Below, piece by piece: positions 923 to 47,903 of a stretch of DNA of 64,000 nt. The position numbers were made by a program, and so were the translations under genes. Source of the DNA: an uncultured Burkholderiales bacterium (lineage in GTDB: Bacteria > Pseudomonadota > Gammaproteobacteria > Burkholderiales > Burkholderiaceae_C). Position 1 is the first letter of the stretch, and every line of letters starts with the position of its first letter. The DNA is taken from NCBI GenBank assembly GCA_903910745.1, contig CAIWAO010000157.1, positions 1 through 64,000 of the forward strand. Direction: 5' to 3'. The notes below the pieces were generated by a model. The model was not told the DNA's origin and did no database searches. It was given only the letters and a program-made list of their open reading frames with translations.

Positions 923-1648
923 TTAAGATAATATGGGGGATAATGAATTTGAATTGTTAAATTCAGTAATTGCATTTTCAATTATTGATCTATCAATAAT
1001 TCCGCTTGGATTTTGGGTGCTCGCTAAACACGCAATAAAGGGCTGATACCTCTCCAAACTTTTGTTGTAAAGCCGTTTCAGCTCCTCAATGGGCTCTACA
1101 TGATCATCTACCCGAAGGCTTAAATCTGGATAGGGTTGGTCACGTTGGATCAGAACTGCAGCTGACTGTTTACCTCGTTTATCACCACCAAAACTTTCAC
1201 CAGCGCTCATTGCCAGAATAAGCCTTTTAGCAAGAGGTTGGCCCTCTGATTCTTGAAAAATCTCTAGTGTGCGCTCCAATACGTCTGCACCTGCTAACAT
1301 GTTTCCTGCAACACTGATGTTAGGGACGCTAATATGTCCACACCAATCAACACATTCAGCTCCCGTAAAAGCATAGCTTTCACCGTTAGCCGTCAGCACA
1401 TGAATCTGTCTTTGCTCACGCCCAATGTCTTTACTTAAAAGTTTTTGAACAACATTTTCTGCGTCGATACCTTGGTTGATTAATTCAAGCCCCTGAGTCC
1501 CGTAAAGGGGATTCATCAATGCCTGAGTTGATAAGCAACCCATTAATGGGCTAACATGGATACTAAGTGACCCTACTGCAAAAAAACGACTTGCAATCGC
1601 AATTCCAAATGTTCCGTTCGAATCCTTAGCTAGTATGGACCACGTCAT
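923..1648 (-). CDS. DUF1028-family Ntn-hydrolase-like protein
   Basis: 241 residues. The N-terminus (MTWSILAKDSNGTFGIAIAS) and the later A-x-x-T-Q-A-L-x-N-P-x-Y-G segment match the DUF1028 family, which is assigned to the N-terminal-nucleophile hydrolase fold. Loss of the initiator Met would expose Thr2 as the candidate nucleophile. The substrate of the family is not established. The start overlaps the stop of the amidase gene by four bases (1645-1648), so the two are translationally coupled. This suggests that both hydrolases act on the same amide or peptide-like nitrogen source, probably one brought in by the divergent ABC transporter. Confidence 0.85.
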   Translation of the reverse strand: MTWSILAKDSNGTFGIAIASRFFAVGSLSIHVSPLMGCLSTQALMNPLYGTQGLELINQGIDAENVVQKLLSKDIGREQRQIHVLTANGESYAFTGAECVDWCGHISVPNISVAGNMLAGADVLERTLEIFQESEGQPLAKRLILAMSAGESFGGDKRGKQSAAVLIQRDQPYPDLSLRVDDHVEPIEELKRLYNKSLERYQPFIACLASTQNPSGIIDRSIIENAITEFNNSNSLSPILS

Positions 1649-3039
1649 ATATTCACCTGATTGGAAAGTTGAATTTTACGGTGACTATAAATGCTAGCAA
1701 GTTGAGTCTCCACGTAAGCTGCAATTTTAAGCAACTCATCATCCCTACCCCAATCACTCACCAACTGAATACCAAGGGGTAGTCCATTAGAAGACCATCC
1801 AGCAGGTAATGTAATAGCCGGAGACCCCAGCAAAGTAAAGGGAGTACAAAACACAGCGTTGCCTGTGTCATTCAAACCGTGAGGTGCCTCTCCTGTTGCG
1901 GGCATCGTTAACAAAGCGTCAAAACCTTTCATAAATATGGAGAACTCTGCGATCAACTCTTGCTGAATACGCCGTGCCTTTACGTAATCAACCATCGTTA
2001 TATTTAAACCTTTTAGAACTAGTGCTTGGGTGACAGCCGAAATCTTTGAAGGATTTTCTTTAGCTAGTGATTCATTAATTTGTCCTGCCTCAGCATACTG
2101 TATGAGTTCCGCAGTTGCCCAAATTGAATCAAATGGGTCAGGTAGCTCAACTTCTCGAACATGTGCTCCAGAGTCATTTAATAACTCAGCAACCTTATCC
2201 ATAAGGAGTTGCTGCTCTGTACTTACCAAATTCCATTTGGAAGTTCTCAGGAAACCAATTTTCAATGGTTTGCTTAGTTTGGAACTCTCCTTTGCCCAGT
2301 TACGCCAATCGGGTGAAGAAGAAATTGGTTTTGTGTTTAAGTGGGGGAAATCTAAACCATCATTATGAAAAAGTGAGGAGGCAAGATATGCGGCATCAGC
2401 AACACTTCTTGTAAAAACACCGACATGATCCAAACTCAATGCCAAAGGATACACGCCGGTTCTGGATATAGCACCGAAGCTTGGCTTGAATCCCACAACT
2501 CCGCAATAAGCTGCAGGCCGTATAACAGAGCCAAGGGTCTGCGTACCTAACGCGGCTGGCATTAATTTAGCTGCTACCCCAGCCGCAGAGCCACTTGAGG
2601 AGCCACCTGGCGTGTATGTGTTGTTCCAGGGATTCTTTGTTTTTCCAGGAAACCTCCAAGCAAACTCAGTGGTCACCGTTTTACCTAAAATGACTCCGCC
2701 TAAGTTTTGGATTCGTTCCACAACGCTTGCAGAACTCTTAGCAACTCGACCCTTAAATGCCGCTGATCCTCTCTCAGTGTTTAGTCGCTCAGTGTCAATA
2801 ATGTCTTTGACCCCAACTGGCACCCCCCAAAGGGGCTGAGTTTGAACATCTTGGTAGTCTAGTTTTGCATAGGCTTGCCGTAACTGAGCAGAATCATAGT
2901 GTGCAAAAACACCAATCAAAGGTTCAACTTTATCGATTCTTTCTATGAGACTTGTAACGTAATTCTCTTTAGAAAAAGATTTTTCGGCTAGAGCATAATG
3001 AGCATCAATTAAACCCAGTTCACTTAAATCGTTTTTCAT
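1645..3039 (-). CDS. Amidase (amidase-signature family)
   Basis: 464 residues, normal for the family. The Ser-cisSer-Lys triad is visible: Lys78 in GVPVGVKD, cis-Ser147 in GGSSSGSAA and nucleophile Ser171 in LGSVIRPAAYCG; the 24-residue spacing between the two serines equals that in FAAH. The usual GGSSGGS is GGSSSGS here, a conservative change. It should hydrolyse a carboxamide to acid and ammonia in the cytoplasm; no signal peptide is seen. It is the first gene of a two-gene operon with the DUF1028 hydrolase, reading away from the ABC transporter at 3412. It could equally be an aryl- or allophanate-type amidase; the substrate is not deducible. Confidence 0.9.
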   Translation of the reverse strand: MKNDLSELGLIDAHYALAEKSFSKENYVTSLIERIDKVEPLIGVFAHYDSAQLRQAYAKLDYQDVQTQPLWGVPVGVKDIIDTERLNTERGSAAFKGRVAKSSASVVERIQNLGGVILGKTVTTEFAWRFPGKTKNPWNNTYTPGGSSSGSAAGVAAKLMPAALGTQTLGSVIRPAAYCGVVGFKPSFGAISRTGVYPLALSLDHVGVFTRSVADAAYLASSLFHNDGLDFPHLNTKPISSSPDWRNWAKESSKLSKPLKIGFLRTSKWNLVSTEQQLLMDKVAELLNDSGAHVREVELPDPFDSIWATAELIQYAEAGQINESLAKENPSKISAVTQALVLKGLNITMVDYVKARRIQQELIAEFSIFMKGFDALLTMPATGEAPHGLNDTGNAVFCTPFTLLGSPAITLPAGWSSNGLPLGIQLVSDWGRDDELLKIAAYVETQLASIYSHRKIQLSNQVNI

Positions 3040-3131
3040 TTTGTGGTTTGACTTTTAAAAGATAAAGTATTGCGATTTTCTTCTAAGACTGGTTTGGTAA
3101 TTTAAACCCAATTTCGCTACCAATAAATCCG

Positions 3132-3147
3132 AGCAAATATTAAGCCA
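3132..3147 (-). promoter_or_regulatory. Sigma-54-like -24/-12 promoter of the amidase operon
   Basis: Read on the minus strand, TGGCTTAATATTTGCT: GG and GC are exactly ten bases apart, with TGGC and TTGC exact matches to the TGGCAC-N5-TTGCW consensus. The predicted start of transcription is near 3120, about 80 bases before the amidase ATG. Confidence 0.55.
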
Positions 3148-3241
3148 TGAATTTATACAAAAAAATTCGATTAAAAATTTTTAATTTTCATTTTTCAGAG
3201 ATCCTTTGAACTGAAACTAATACTAGATATTCCAATTCCAC

Positions 3242-3258
3242 AGCACCAAATCTGTGCA
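3242..3258. promoter_or_regulatory. NtrC-like enhancer dyad
   Basis: AGCACCAAATCTGTGCA fits the NtrC dyad (GCAC-N7-GTGC core); 11 of 14 half-site positions match TGCACCA-N3-TGGTGCA. Its centre is about 130 bases from both predicted sigma-54 start sites, a normal enhancer distance. Confidence 0.5.
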
Positions 3259-3285
3259 TTGATATATGTTACCCATTAAACGTTC

Positions 3286-3301
3286 AAATGCGTGCGCATT
3301 T
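3286..3301. promoter_or_regulatory. 7-2-7 palindrome in the divergent spacer
   Basis: AAATGCGTGCGCATTT is a perfect inverted repeat with a 2-base centre. It may be an operator for a local regulator or IHF-class architecture; the binding protein is unknown. Confidence 0.4.
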
Positions 3302-3356
3302 AAATCAAATTGGTGCAGCAGTATCAATGAATTCGATGATAGTGAACAATTGGAGT

Positions 3357-3371
3357 TGGCTTGATAATTGC
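3357..3371 (+). promoter_or_regulatory. Sigma-54-like -24/-12 promoter of the ABC operon
   Basis: TGGCTTGATAATTGC: GG-N10-GC spacing with exact TGGC and TTGC blocks. The predicted start of transcription is near 3383, giving a leader of about 29 bases before the ATG at 3412. A TTG at 3361 lies inside this element and is therefore unlikely to be the gene start. Confidence 0.55.
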
Positions 3372-3411
3372 GCATATTGAAGGTCTAAACAACTTCATAG
3401 TCATACTTCAA

Positions 3412-4407
3412 ATGAATCAAATTAAACAATCTAAACGTAAAAGCCTCAAACAATTAGTTGGACTTGGAGTTGGAATCAGTACAGCGAGTGTTTCACAGTT
3501 AGTCAGAGCTGAAGATAAAAAATTACTTATCGGTTATTGGCCTATTGCCGCAGGTTTACCGTTTTACGCTGCATTAGAGAGGGGCTTCTTCAAAGCGGCC
3601 GGTGTTAACGTTGAGGCAGTAAAGTTTGCCAGTCCTAGCCAAGTCGTTGAGGCAATGATTGCTGGGAGGATAGATGGCTGCTCAAATGGTGTGGCAATTA
3701 CAGCTTTAGCTCTGGCGGATGCACAATCGCCAGGTAGCATCAAATTTACATGTGTGAACTTTGCAAATGATAAGTACGTACTTGACGAAATTATTATTCC
3801 TATCAATTCATCCGTAAAGGAAATCTCAGAACTATCTGGAAAAAAGGTAGCTTGCGGACCTGGAATTAATAATGTCACTTTGGCGAAGGCTATTCTGCAA
3901 GGTGCGGGTGCTAAAGATGCAAAGGTAACGGAGCTCCCATTTGCACAAATTCTTCCTGCAATCGCAGCCGGACAAGTAGACGCAGCCTATATCTTAGAGC
4001 CAACTGGGGTGATTGGTGCTCAACAAAAAATCTCTCGAATACTTGCCTCAGGGGTCGTTACAAAATATGTACTCGGAGATAACTTGCCCTGGATAGGCGG
4101 TGCAGCCGCTTTAACATCTACAACACTCAAAGAAAAGGCTGCCCTTATACCAAAATACCTCAGCGCGTATTCTGAGGGCGTAGCGTATGTTCGCAAAGAA
4201 GGAGCGAAAGCCAACCAATATTTAGCTGGCTATACAGCAATAGAGGGAGAATTAGCAAAGTCAGTGCCTCTTAGTGGCTACATCGATCACTCCGAGGTAA
4301 AGCCTGGTGACATGCGTGCATTACAAAAACTATTTGATGTTTTCACGGAGAGAAAAGTTTTTGAAAATCAAGTTTTGGCGCTACCCCTATTTTACAAAAA
4401 AACTTAA
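3412..4407 (+). CDS. ABC transporter substrate-binding protein, NitT/TauT (SsuA/ThiY-like) family
   Basis: The ATG at 3412 gives a 331-residue precursor whose N-terminus (basic MNQIKQSKRKS, a short hydrophobic stretch, then VRAEDKK) looks like a signal sequence. A TTG at 3361 would place the promoter inside the gene. The mature part starts with the strand K-L-L-I-G-Y-W-P and has the periplasmic-binding fold pattern of the family (Y-A-A-L-E-R-G-F-F-K-A-A-G-V-N-V near residue 50). It should capture a small nitrogen- or sulfur-containing organic solute for the permease and ATPase that follow. The solute is unknown; the divergent amidase/DUF1028 pair points to an amide. Confidence 0.88.
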   Translation: MNQIKQSKRKSLKQLVGLGVGISTASVSQLVRAEDKKLLIGYWPIAAGLPFYAALERGFFKAAGVNVEAVKFASPSQVVEAMIAGRIDGCSNGVAITALALADAQSPGSIKFTCVNFANDKYVLDEIIIPINSSVKEISELSGKKVACGPGINNVTLAKAILQGAGAKDAKVTELPFAQILPAIAAGQVDAAYILEPTGVIGAQQKISRILASGVVTKYVLGDNLPWIGGAAALTSTTLKEKAALIPKYLSAYSEGVAYVRKEGAKANQYLAGYTAIEGELAKSVPLSGYIDHSEVKPGDMRALQKLFDVFTERKVFENQVLALPLFYKKT

Positions 4408-4509
4408 TGTCAATTCCTTAAGTTTTAGAGGTGAAAGAAACTCGAATTTCAAAAATTTGATTTCTTTCTTTTCTGAATTTTCCCTGCTCTTTATTAACAA
4501 ACTTTTAAT

Positions 4510-5274
4510 ATGCGCTTTAAATGGACAATTCGTCTACTACCTCTGGTAGGACCGGTGATCCTATATATACTTTGGGCGACCGCAGTATCCGCTAAGTGGG
4601 TATCTGCTGCATTGCTGCCCTCTCCACTGACAACTATTGTCTATACGGGTCATGTGTTTGTTAGCGGTGCAATTTGGGGAGACTTATGGTCAACCGTACA
4701 GAGAACCTTGTATGCCTTCGCTTGTGCAAGTCTCGTGGGTGTTCCTTTAGGAGTCTTACTTGGGAGCTCTCCCCCTATTTATAAGAGCGTTGAATTTTTG
4801 ATTGATTTTTTCCGCTCAACCCCATCATCCGCAATGATCCCCCTATTCATGTTGATATTTGGAATTACCGATATCAACAAAATAGCTATTGCAGCTTTTT
4901 CAGCTGTACTTGTCATTATTTTTAACAGTGCATACGGTGTAATGAACGCAAAGAAAACAAGAGTTATGGCAGCAAAAACAATGGGGGTCAGCCGTTTCCA
5001 TATCTTTAAAGATGTGCTTTTGATGGAGAGCTTGCTCCAAACCTTTATCGGCCTAAGGACGGGCATCTCACTGGCACTGGTCATCGTGATCGTGGCGGAA
5101 ATGTTTATTGGGTCGGAGAGCGGTCTTGGGCACAGAATTATTGATGCCCAACAAGTATTCAATATCAAAGACATGTACAGCTCCATATTGATAACAGGTG
5201 CCCTTGGATACGTGATGAATTTAATTTTTATGTTTGTAGAAAACCGTCTCATTCACTGGGGCGGGAAGGTATAA
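4510..5274 (+). CDS. ABC transporter permease, NitT/TauT (SsuC) family
   Basis: 254 residues with about six membrane segments. The first is at 8-28, and the cytoplasmic coupling region lies in the 140-175 stretch (A-A-K-T-M-G-V-S-R-F-H-I-F). It is the inner-membrane channel for the binding protein upstream. The ATPase follows after two bases, so the pair is one transcriptional unit. The 102-base gap after the binding-protein gene holds no terminator. The ribosome binding site is not obvious. Confidence 0.88.
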   Translation: MRFKWTIRLLPLVGPVILYILWATAVSAKWVSAALLPSPLTTIVYTGHVFVSGAIWGDLWSTVQRTLYAFACASLVGVPLGVLLGSSPPIYKSVEFLIDFFRSTPSSAMIPLFMLIFGITDINKIAIAAFSAVLVIIFNSAYGVMNAKKTRVMAAKTMGVSRFHIFKDVLLMESLLQTFIGLRTGISLALVIVIVAEMFIGSESGLGHRIIDAQQVFNIKDMYSSILITGALGYVMNLIFMFVENRLIHWGGKV

Positions 5275-5276
5275 CG

Positions 5277-6107
5277 ATGTCAAATATTAATATTCATGCC
5301 CCCACCTCAAGCCGCACTTCAAGTTTGGCTTCGAATCCTTTGACCGGCCCTCGTAAGACGCATGTATTGATTGACAATTTAAACAAGTCTTTTTCCGGAT
5401 TACCTTTATATATAGACTTTAATCTAAAAATATCAAGAGGTGACATAGTCTCTATTTTTGGACCTAATGGCTGCGGCAAATCCACCCTGATCAACATGAT
5501 TGCAGGACTTACGGAAATAGATACTGGTCAAATATTATTTGATGGAAAAACCCTTACTGAAACCAAAATTGGATATGTATTTCAAAACTACAGGGATGCA
5601 TTATTTCCTTGGATGAACGCCTGGAGCAACATTGCATACCCTCTAAAGAGATCTGGCATGAGCGCATCCCAAGTAAAGGACAGAGTAGAGGCACTTATAG
5701 ATTTATTTGAAATCAAATTCAACCTTAAACAGTACCCCTATGAGCTATCAGGTGGGCAACAGCAAACCATCTCAATCATGCGGGCTCTAGCAACCGATCC
5801 AGAGGTATTATTTTTAGATGAGCCTTTTTCTGCACTCGATTTCGAGATGACCTTGTTTATAAGAGAAAAACTGCAAGAAGCCAATCTCAAAACAGGTGTG
5901 ACGATGCTTATCGTCTCACATGACTTGGAGGACGCGGTATTTTTGGCAGATAAAATACTACTTCTAACACGCCGACCAACAAGGATTGCTGCAATGTTAG
6001 ATTTTGATCTTGAAAGACCCAGAAAAGCTGAATCTGTCAGTGATCCCAAATTTATCAAAGTAAAAGCAAAGGCTCTTGAGATATTTCAAAATGAGATGAG
6101 AGCGTAG
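5277..6107 (+). CDS. ABC transporter ATPase, NitT/TauT (SsuB) family
   Basis: 276 residues. Walker A is GPNGCGKST, the signature is LSGGQQQT, Walker B is VLFLDEPFSALD and the switch histidine is in VSHDLEDAV. It energises the permease encoded just upstream. The first 30 residues are Ser/Pro-rich and precede the conserved domain, so a later start is possible, but the ATG at 5277 sits two bases after the permease stop, as expected for coupling. Last gene of the three-gene operon. Confidence 0.92.
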   Translation: MSNINIHAPTSSRTSSLASNPLTGPRKTHVLIDNLNKSFSGLPLYIDFNLKISRGDIVSIFGPNGCGKSTLINMIAGLTEIDTGQILFDGKTLTETKIGYVFQNYRDALFPWMNAWSNIAYPLKRSGMSASQVKDRVEALIDLFEIKFNLKQYPYELSGGQQQTISIMRALATDPEVLFLDEPFSALDFEMTLFIREKLQEANLKTGVTMLIVSHDLEDAVFLADKILLLTRRPTRIAAMLDFDLERPRKAESVSDPKFIKVKAKALEIFQNEMRA

Positions 6108-47273: not shown

Positions 47274-47903
47274 TCAAATGAGGCTCAAGTACTCATCACA
47301 ATTCATCACCTTTGCAACTGTTGTGAGATCCAGGAGAGATGTCTCATGTATTTGATCGCTAAACGCTGCGCAACCATCGCTCAGCACTGTGCACCTGTAA
47401 TCGCGCACGTGTGCATCTCTGACTGAACTGGCGACTCCGCCATTGGTCACAATCCCGCATACCACCAACTCTTTGATCCCCGCTCTTGAAAGTGCCCAGT
47501 CAAGTTGAGTGTTAAAGAAGGCTGAGTAAGCCACCTTAGAGACAGAGAAGTCGACTAAACTTTTAAGCTCCTCTACATTTTGTTGACCCCAACCATTGGG
47601 TTGAAAATCTCCTTTGACCAAAAAGGGTCTCAGTTTTTTTAGGTGATCAGAGATCAGAGGCTCCCCCCCAACGCCAGGCCAAAGCGTAAAAAGACTTGAA
47701 ACAACCATTCCTCCTCGGTCTTTGATTCGTTTGGCAACATGCAGAACCCTTTGCGGCAAAGCCCTCGCCTTCTCACTCACAGCACCGCCCCTTGCATAGG
47801 CACCATCAGGGTGCAGGAAATCATTTTGAAGGTCTATGATCAAAAGTGCAACCGAGCTGCAACTCTTGTCTGAGTCTGAGTTATTCAGATTTTGATCTTG
47901 CAT
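47274..47903 (-). CDS. Isochorismatase-fold hydrolase lacking the usual catalytic Cys
   Basis: 209 residues. Asp of the family is in A-L-L-I-I-D-L-Q-N-D-F and the Lys in K-V-A-Y-S-A-F-F-N-T, but the C-V segment reads G-I-V-T-N-G-G-V-A-S-S-V-R-D-A: Gly replaces the nucleophilic Cys seen in nicotinamidase and maleamate or carbamoylsarcosine amidohydrolases. A Cys stands six residues earlier (V-V-C-G). It may be a true amidase with a shifted nucleophile, or a non-amide hydrolase as in Cys-less members. It follows hyuA by one base. Confidence 0.85.
   Translation of the reverse strand: MQDQNLNNSDSDKSCSSVALLIIDLQNDFLHPDGAYARGGAVSEKARALPQRVLHVAKRIKDRGGMVVSSLFTLWPGVGGEPLISDHLKKLRPFLVKGDFQPNGWGQQNVEELKSLVDFSVSKVAYSAFFNTQLDWALSRAGIKELVVCGIVTNGGVASSVRDAHVRDYRCTVLSDGCAAFSDQIHETSLLDLTTVAKVMNCDEYLSLI

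Follow-up and report, generated by a model that had tools for sequence, protein, structure and literature searches.

The DNA analysed here is a 64,000-nucleotide stretch (hereafter the window) from an uncultured Burkholderiales bacterium. At 3040-3411 it contains a 372-bp spacer that separates two divergent gene sets, an amidase-DUF1028 pair on the minus strand and a NitT/TauT-type transporter operon on the plus strand. The transporter operon begins with a NitT/TauT-type substrate-binding protein (NMT1/SsuA-like; 3412-4407), which exceeds the PF09084 cut-off and scores 82.9 bits with TIGR01728, under the cut-off of 163.5. It is followed by an ABC transporter permease (4510-5274; PF00528) and an ATPase (5277-6107; PF00005), so the binding protein, permease and ATPase of the NitT/TauT ABC class are all present by Pfam models over cut-off. 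None of the three reached the cut-off of an NCBIfam model among the matches listed (the best 25 for the ATPase). On the other side, the amidase (1645-3039; PF01425, 293.3 bits) is the first gene of the minus-strand operon, and the coding sequence of the DUF1028 protein (923-1648; PF06267, 215.3 bits) starts with a 4-nt overlap at the amidase stop. A preliminary description of this DNA named the gene products as an amidase, a DUF1028 hydrolase and a NitT/TauT transporter. Both divergent gene sets look suited to the uptake and breakdown of a nitrogen compound.

The preliminary description placed outward-facing TGGCTT-N5-TTGC elements on both strands of the spacer. Both are indeed exact matches: TGGCTTAATATTTGC at 3133-3147 on the minus strand and TGGCTTGATAATTGC at 3357-3371 on the plus strand, each a predicted sigma-54 -24/-12 element. 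When the C of the GC doublet is counted as -12, the predicted +1 positions are 3121 and 3383, respectively. Both elements also satisfy TGGC-N7-TTGC, in which GG at -24 and GC at -12 stand at a set distance from each other, and they score 10.9 (minus) and 12.5 (plus) with our sigma-54 position weight matrix (PWM). This matrix was made by hand from the sigma-54 consensus, and the NtrC matrix used below was made by hand in line with TGCACCAnnnTGGTGCA (PMC8743547); neither was trained. In several of the amtB control loci, the glnK-amtB promoter falls on the limit of the 1500-bp flank or outside it, and therefore no motif was trained there. Position -23, a base pair that sigma-54 contacts (PMC3844500), is T in both window elements and not A, the frequent base there, which we do not treat as defining. 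By comparison, it is A in 47 of the 48 best urtA-side elements of the scanned ureA loci, a result that holds with that column unweighted. We therefore class the window elements only as predicted, non-canonical sigma-54 promoters.

The predicted transcript start at 3383 bears on the choice of start codon for the binding protein. A longer frame opens at TTG 3361, which lies before the predicted +1, and homologues of the binding protein start at the place corresponding to 3412. The start at 3412 given in the preliminary description is thus consistent with a transcript start at 3383 and agrees with the homologues. Reading the sequence by eye, we saw no obvious Shine-Dalgarno sequence before 3412 or 3039. 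No terminators were found in 2900-3500, and a sigma-70 promoter scan of the same interval returned one promoter-like match against 2.6 in shuffles; it lies on the plus strand inside the amidase gene.

Between the two elements lies an NtrC-type dyad, AGCACCAAATCTGTGCA at 3242-3258, the candidate central enhancer site. It has an exact GCAC-N7-GTGC core (GCACCAAATCTGTGC at 3243-3257) and an NtrC PWM score of 16.0. By hand count, the dyad agrees with the published NtrC box TGCACCAnnnTGGTGCA (PMC8743547) at 10 of 12 arm positions and at 11 of 14 stated positions; set against the consensus (T)GCA(CC)AnnnT(GG)TGC(A) of the same source, its inner right position is C, not T. The coordinates in the preliminary description, including those of the dyad, are correct by exact motif match. 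Two putative GTGC half-sites follow on the plus strand, both on the transporter side of the dyad. The first, TCAAATGCGTGC at 3284-3295, has its GTGC at 3292, 38 bp from the GTGC of the dyad, and the second, TCAAATTGGTGCA at 3305-3317, has its GTGC at 3313, 21 bp past 3292. These second and third GTGC sites are parts of a 12-nt direct repeat (D2) whose copies stand 21 bp apart in the window.

From its centre at 3250, the dyad is 129 bp from the predicted start at 3121 on the minus strand and 133 bp from that at 3383 on the plus strand. Enhancers usually lie some 70-150 bp upstream of their promoters (PMC3844500), and both distances fall in this range. The gaps from dyad edge to element edge are 95 and 99 bp. 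Therefore, the distance of "about 130 bases" in the preliminary description refers to the predicted start sites and does not hold for the elements themselves. Its single equidistant enhancer needs a similar adjustment: the distances are nearly equal, but the site appears to be a dyad with two half-sites and not one site.

This composition is suggested by comparison with the nearest relative, L036 (G126 among the whole genomes), where the binding protein shares 81% identity. The plus element of L036, TGGCTTGATACTTGC, lies 55 bases before the gene, the same distance as in the window. It has the same T at -23, which is thus at least tolerated in L036. The alignment of the two loci is gap-free from the dyad (GCACCTAATTCGTGC in L036) to the third site, in which TTGGTGCAG is conserved, and the DNA is otherwise poorly alignable. 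GTGC occurs at 3254, 3292 and 3313 in the window and at 5844, 5882 and 5903 in L036, with spacings of 38 and 21 bp in both; L036 has two further GTGC beyond 5903. The offsets +38 and +59 appeared together in 1 of 20,000 shuffles of the L036 segment. Because the GTGC offsets match in L036 and the sites form a direct repeat in the window, we take the predicted enhancer to be the dyad plus two half-sites, with its two sides alike in distance and unlike in content.

The regulators for such a control region are encoded in the same genome (assembly of 2.87 Mb, 98.76% complete). It has a single RpoN, complete with the three sigma-54 domains. NtrC scores 668.8 bits with TIGR01818 (cut-off 558.6) and NtrB 300.9 bits with NF008293 (cut-off 240), and ntrB, ntrC and glnA lie on the same strand of one contig. 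Sigma54_activat has five matches, three strong and two weak (E 4e-6 and 6e-6). Of the strong activators other than NtrC, one adjoins a flagellin C-terminal domain and one adjoins OmpA and LPP20 proteins, and for this reason NtrC is the likely activator. In some taxa, the NtrC regulons of proteobacteria cover genes for allophanate hydrolase and urea transport (PMC5343134), and the gene types of the window fit this content. We consider it probable that 3040-3411 is a nitrogen-limitation control region in which dyad-bound NtrC activates the sigma-54 polymerase of both promoters. The NtrC/sigma-54 control put forward in the preliminary description thus stands as a well-supported prediction: RpoN and NtrC are present, the dyad, half-sites and plus promoter are kept in L036, and the layout recurs at urtA/ureA spacers.

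We regard it as unlikely that only the transporter promoter at 3357-3371 is of the sigma-54/NtrC type, with the minus element a chance match and the amidase operon transcribed otherwise. L036 would fit such an arrangement, in that it keeps the plus element alone; a CBS-domain gene diverges on its opposite side, and the spacer scan gave no comparable minus element. The placement of the half-sites on the transporter side and the lower score of the minus element would fit as well, and the window holds 28 sigma-54 PWM scores of at least 10.5. Against this, an equal minus element arose in the left part of the spacer in just 42 and 51 of 20,000 shuffles (two sets); the figures for an equal plus element in the right part were 123 and 97 of 20,000. 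The dyad is also nearly as far from the minus start site as from the plus one, and no sigma-70-like promoter facing the amidase was found in 2900-3500.

The orthologues of the amidase bear on the same question. In G051 and G124, the closest amidase orthologues (60-61%) are the first gene of the transporter operon and lie behind a strong sigma-54 element, TGGCACAGCAGTTGC. The amidase of the window lineage is instead transcribed divergently and has its own predicted sigma-54 element. We infer the minus promoter from the shuffle statistics together with these elements before the amidase orthologues of two genomes. More distant amidase homologues lack fitting elements, as would be expected if the amidase operon were transcribed by other means. 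In G009 (L060; 40%), the amidase follows a same-direction gene, and in its upstream DNA no sigma-54 score reaches 12 and no NtrC score reaches 11. In G239 (L211; 53%), no such scores occur upstream, and in G137 (L212; 51%) the sigma-54 match (16.3) and the NtrC match (11.6) fall inside the preceding same-direction gene and do not fit. As far as upstream sequence can tell, these three results argue against this amidase being linked to sigma-54 in general. Outside its own genome, the amidase has matches in 3 of 83 genus genomes (E 1e-80) and 2 of 398 family genomes (E 1e-110), and in none of these five is it divergent from the transporter within the DNA read.

The element TGGCACAGCAGTTGC precedes the binding protein in G027 and G019. 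In all four genomes (G019, G027, G051 and G124), the spacer with TGGCACAGCAGTTGC also contains an NtrC dyad, with scores of 15.9-19.3. Measured by hand, this dyad is about 577-631 bp from the predicted start of the operon promoter. A weaker sigma-54-like site also faces outward, and its predicted start is about 95-109 bp from the dyad. This second site scores 8.5-12.9, has TGAC or TGCC for TGGC, and lies before a divergent gene of 126-142 codons. This is the geometry at the loci L046 and L047 (from G027 and G019), L048 and L119, where the dyad is about 100 bp from the weak outward site before the 126-142-codon gene and about 600 bp from the operon promoter. The protein of this class in L048 has no Pfam or NCBIfam match.

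Homologues of the binding protein gave mixed results. In L039, L040 and L042 (48-54%), sigma-54 elements scoring 14.3-17.6 precede the binding protein; of these three, only L040 also has an NtrC-like score above 11. No sigma-54 element was found in the scanned spacers of L038 and L043 (70-71%), where the best score was 3.5 and those of L043 measure just 47 and 67 bp; L038 has NtrC-like sites scoring 13.0 and 8.6. A family-wide upstream scan of 42 loci with 48-54% homologues was left out of the counts because minus-strand matches were unturned and the operon promoter often lay outside the DNA read. The scan rows of L008, L009, L011, L013, L014, L016 and L018 are unoriented, and the statements on G027 and G019 rest on the oriented L046 and L047. 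Among the 48-54% homologues with readable frames, an allophanate-hydrolase-like frame often precedes the gene. Wider-family homologues in L012 and L040 adjoin allophanate hydrolase genes, which hints at a urea-like or guanidine-like substrate. These neighbours, which recall guanidine/urea-carboxylase clusters, prompted a search for a leader riboswitch; Rfam at gathering thresholds gave 0 matches in 18 loci, and this candidate was rejected for those loci.

It is very unlikely that the dyad is bound by some other dimeric regulator, or that the promoters are served by an enhancer-binding protein other than NtrC. Dyads of the GCAC-N7-GTGC form also occur inside reading frames, for example at 47800, and a second palindrome, TTCAAATGCG-N2-CGCATTTAAA, lies at 3283-3304, both of which would suit a different protein. 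What argues against one is the agreement of the window dyad with the published NtrC box at most arm positions, the genomic neighbours of the other two strong activators, and the recurrence of similar dyads with sigma-54 elements at urtA/ureA and before a CP_ATPgrasp operon. The dyad near 47800 (47799-47815) is high-scoring and sits inside the predicted frame 47274-47903 on the minus strand; it is probably a chance match.

We searched 84 genus genomes for dyad-N70to100-TGGC-N8-TGC and obtained 214 strand matches versus 14 for a reversed control. We take this difference as weak support, because coding and non-coding DNA are mixed and the reversed control differs in codon make-up; many of the listed matches look like coding DNA. 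Among the matches listed, one dyad was used both ways in three genomes (G005, G021 and G034), and by their reading frames these are spacers between urtA (urea transporter) and ureA (urease), with sigma-54 scores of 12.9-18.2. We then read 53 ureA loci, made up of the 30 best matches, 20 hand-picked from 34 other listed places, and these three. Usable urtA-divergent spacers numbered 40 of the 53, after one locus without a ureA start, one with a spacer of 95 bp and 11 without a recognised urtA frame were left out. The full divergent layout (thresholds of 10.9 for sigma-54 and 11 for NtrC) was present in 15 of 40 urtA/ureA spacers versus 0 of 1600 shuffles, and in 12 of 37 without the three loci chosen for it. 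This figure is rough, since the set includes several near-identical genomes, and some spacers are shortened by long frames so that minus elements are missed. The dyad-to-start distances are 117 and 133 bp in L157 and 117 and 134 bp in L158. In the urtA/ureA spacer of the window's own genome, we found the urtA-side element only and no NtrC-like site of at least 11.

Several other loci carry related arrangements. L157, L158, L159 and other ureA loci have an NtrC-type dyad in the divergent spacer, which in many of them is flanked on either side by an outward sigma-54 element. At L123 3973-4184 (own genome, C91), a CP_ATPgrasp/Alpha-E pair is accompanied by a sigma-54 element at 3973-3989 and two NtrC-like sites at 4138-4154 and 4168-4184, 30 bp apart, suggesting nitrogen control of this gene pair. 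The ends of L120 and L122 (own-genome contigs C17 and C145) carry nearly the same two NtrC-like sites, oppositely oriented; one is identical in both and the other differs at one base. In L120, the pair is followed by a Gcw_chp gene, glnK and amtB; it may reflect a contig overlap or a repeat.

Each motif alone is unremarkable, and the combination is what stands out. The window has 10 matches to TGGC-N5to7-TTGC versus 11.9 expected, and 2 GCAC-N7-GTGC dyads versus 0.82 expected, a count equalled in 22 of 100 shuffles. In 5000 dinucleotide shuffles of 3040-3411, the exact sigma-54 pattern arose 64 times, two outward elements with PWM scores of at least 10.9 twice, a dyad 9 times and all of these together never. 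A second set of 5000 shuffles, evaluated at the exact scores of the window, gave two outward elements 0 times, an equal NtrC score 3 times and all three 0 times. Across 399 family genomes, the exact symmetric pattern matched only in the window's own genome and in G146; we take the G146 match as chance because it lies inside a predicted 357-codon frame with no NtrC PWM score of at least 11 listed. It is therefore scarcely credible that chance alone produced the three elements in this AT-rich intergenic DNA, for although no single motif is significantly commoner in the window than in shuffles, the three never occurred together in either shuffle set, and conserved islands and offsets are found in L036.

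Under NtrC control of both promoters, the following sequence of events may be envisaged. Upon nitrogen limitation, NtrB would phosphorylate NtrC, which would oligomerise on the dyad at 3242-3258, possibly aided by the half-sites at 3284-3295 and 3305-3317. By DNA looping, phosphorylated NtrC would then activate sigma-54 RNA polymerase waiting in closed complexes at the two outward promoters. Transcripts would run from about 3383 through the transporter operon (3412-6107) and from about 3121 through the amidase-DUF1028 operon (3039-923), as far as operon extents can be predicted. One enhancer would in this way switch the uptake and the cleavage of a nitrogenous compound, perhaps an amide or a urea-like one, together.

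The type of layout, a divergent sigma-54 pair with a shared enhancer, is already known, and this locus is a new example; in open-licence PMC literature, the titles and abstracts we saw include none naming this amidase/transporter locus. The closest likeness is to the urtA/ureA spacers of the same genus (G005, G021, G034 and others), which have a central NtrC dyad, outward sigma-54 elements and flanking nitrogen genes. These spacers serve a urea transporter and urease and have TGGCA-type elements, whereas the window has a NitT/TauT transporter and an amidase; both are predictions. Salmonella hycA/hypA likewise has two outward sigma-54 sites in one spacer and both operons attributed to one activator (PMC3844500), but there the activator is FhlA, the genes serve formate metabolism and about 113 bp lie between the sites, versus 209 bp in the window. 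E. coli glnAp2 has high-affinity NtrC sites 1-2 upstream and weaker governor sites 3-4 nearer the promoter (PMC3870243). That arrangement is described for one promoter, whereas the window has one full dyad and two putative half-sites between two promoters. NtrC is reported to bind between divergent units in E. coli, where joint control of two such units is also described (PMC8743547). According to the same source, both divergent units at sgrR/sgrST-setA go up on nitrogen depletion, and not in rpoN or ntrC mutants, although their genes differ from those of the window.

We tentatively raise the possibility that the dyad and the half-sites at 38 and 21 bp form one bidirectional NtrC assembly. Here, the equal distances might tune the output ratio of the two promoters, the half-sites might act as a governor that biases or limits output on the transporter side, and the module might be reused at urtA/ureA in this genus. 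If NtrC control of both promoters holds, the transporter, amidase and DUF1028 protein would join the nitrogen-limitation regulon of a Burkholderiales genus, and DUF1028 would be linked to nitrogen scavenging. Together with the urtA/ureA spacers, the locus would offer a natural set of spacers for studying how one sigma-54 enhancer splits its output between opposite promoters.
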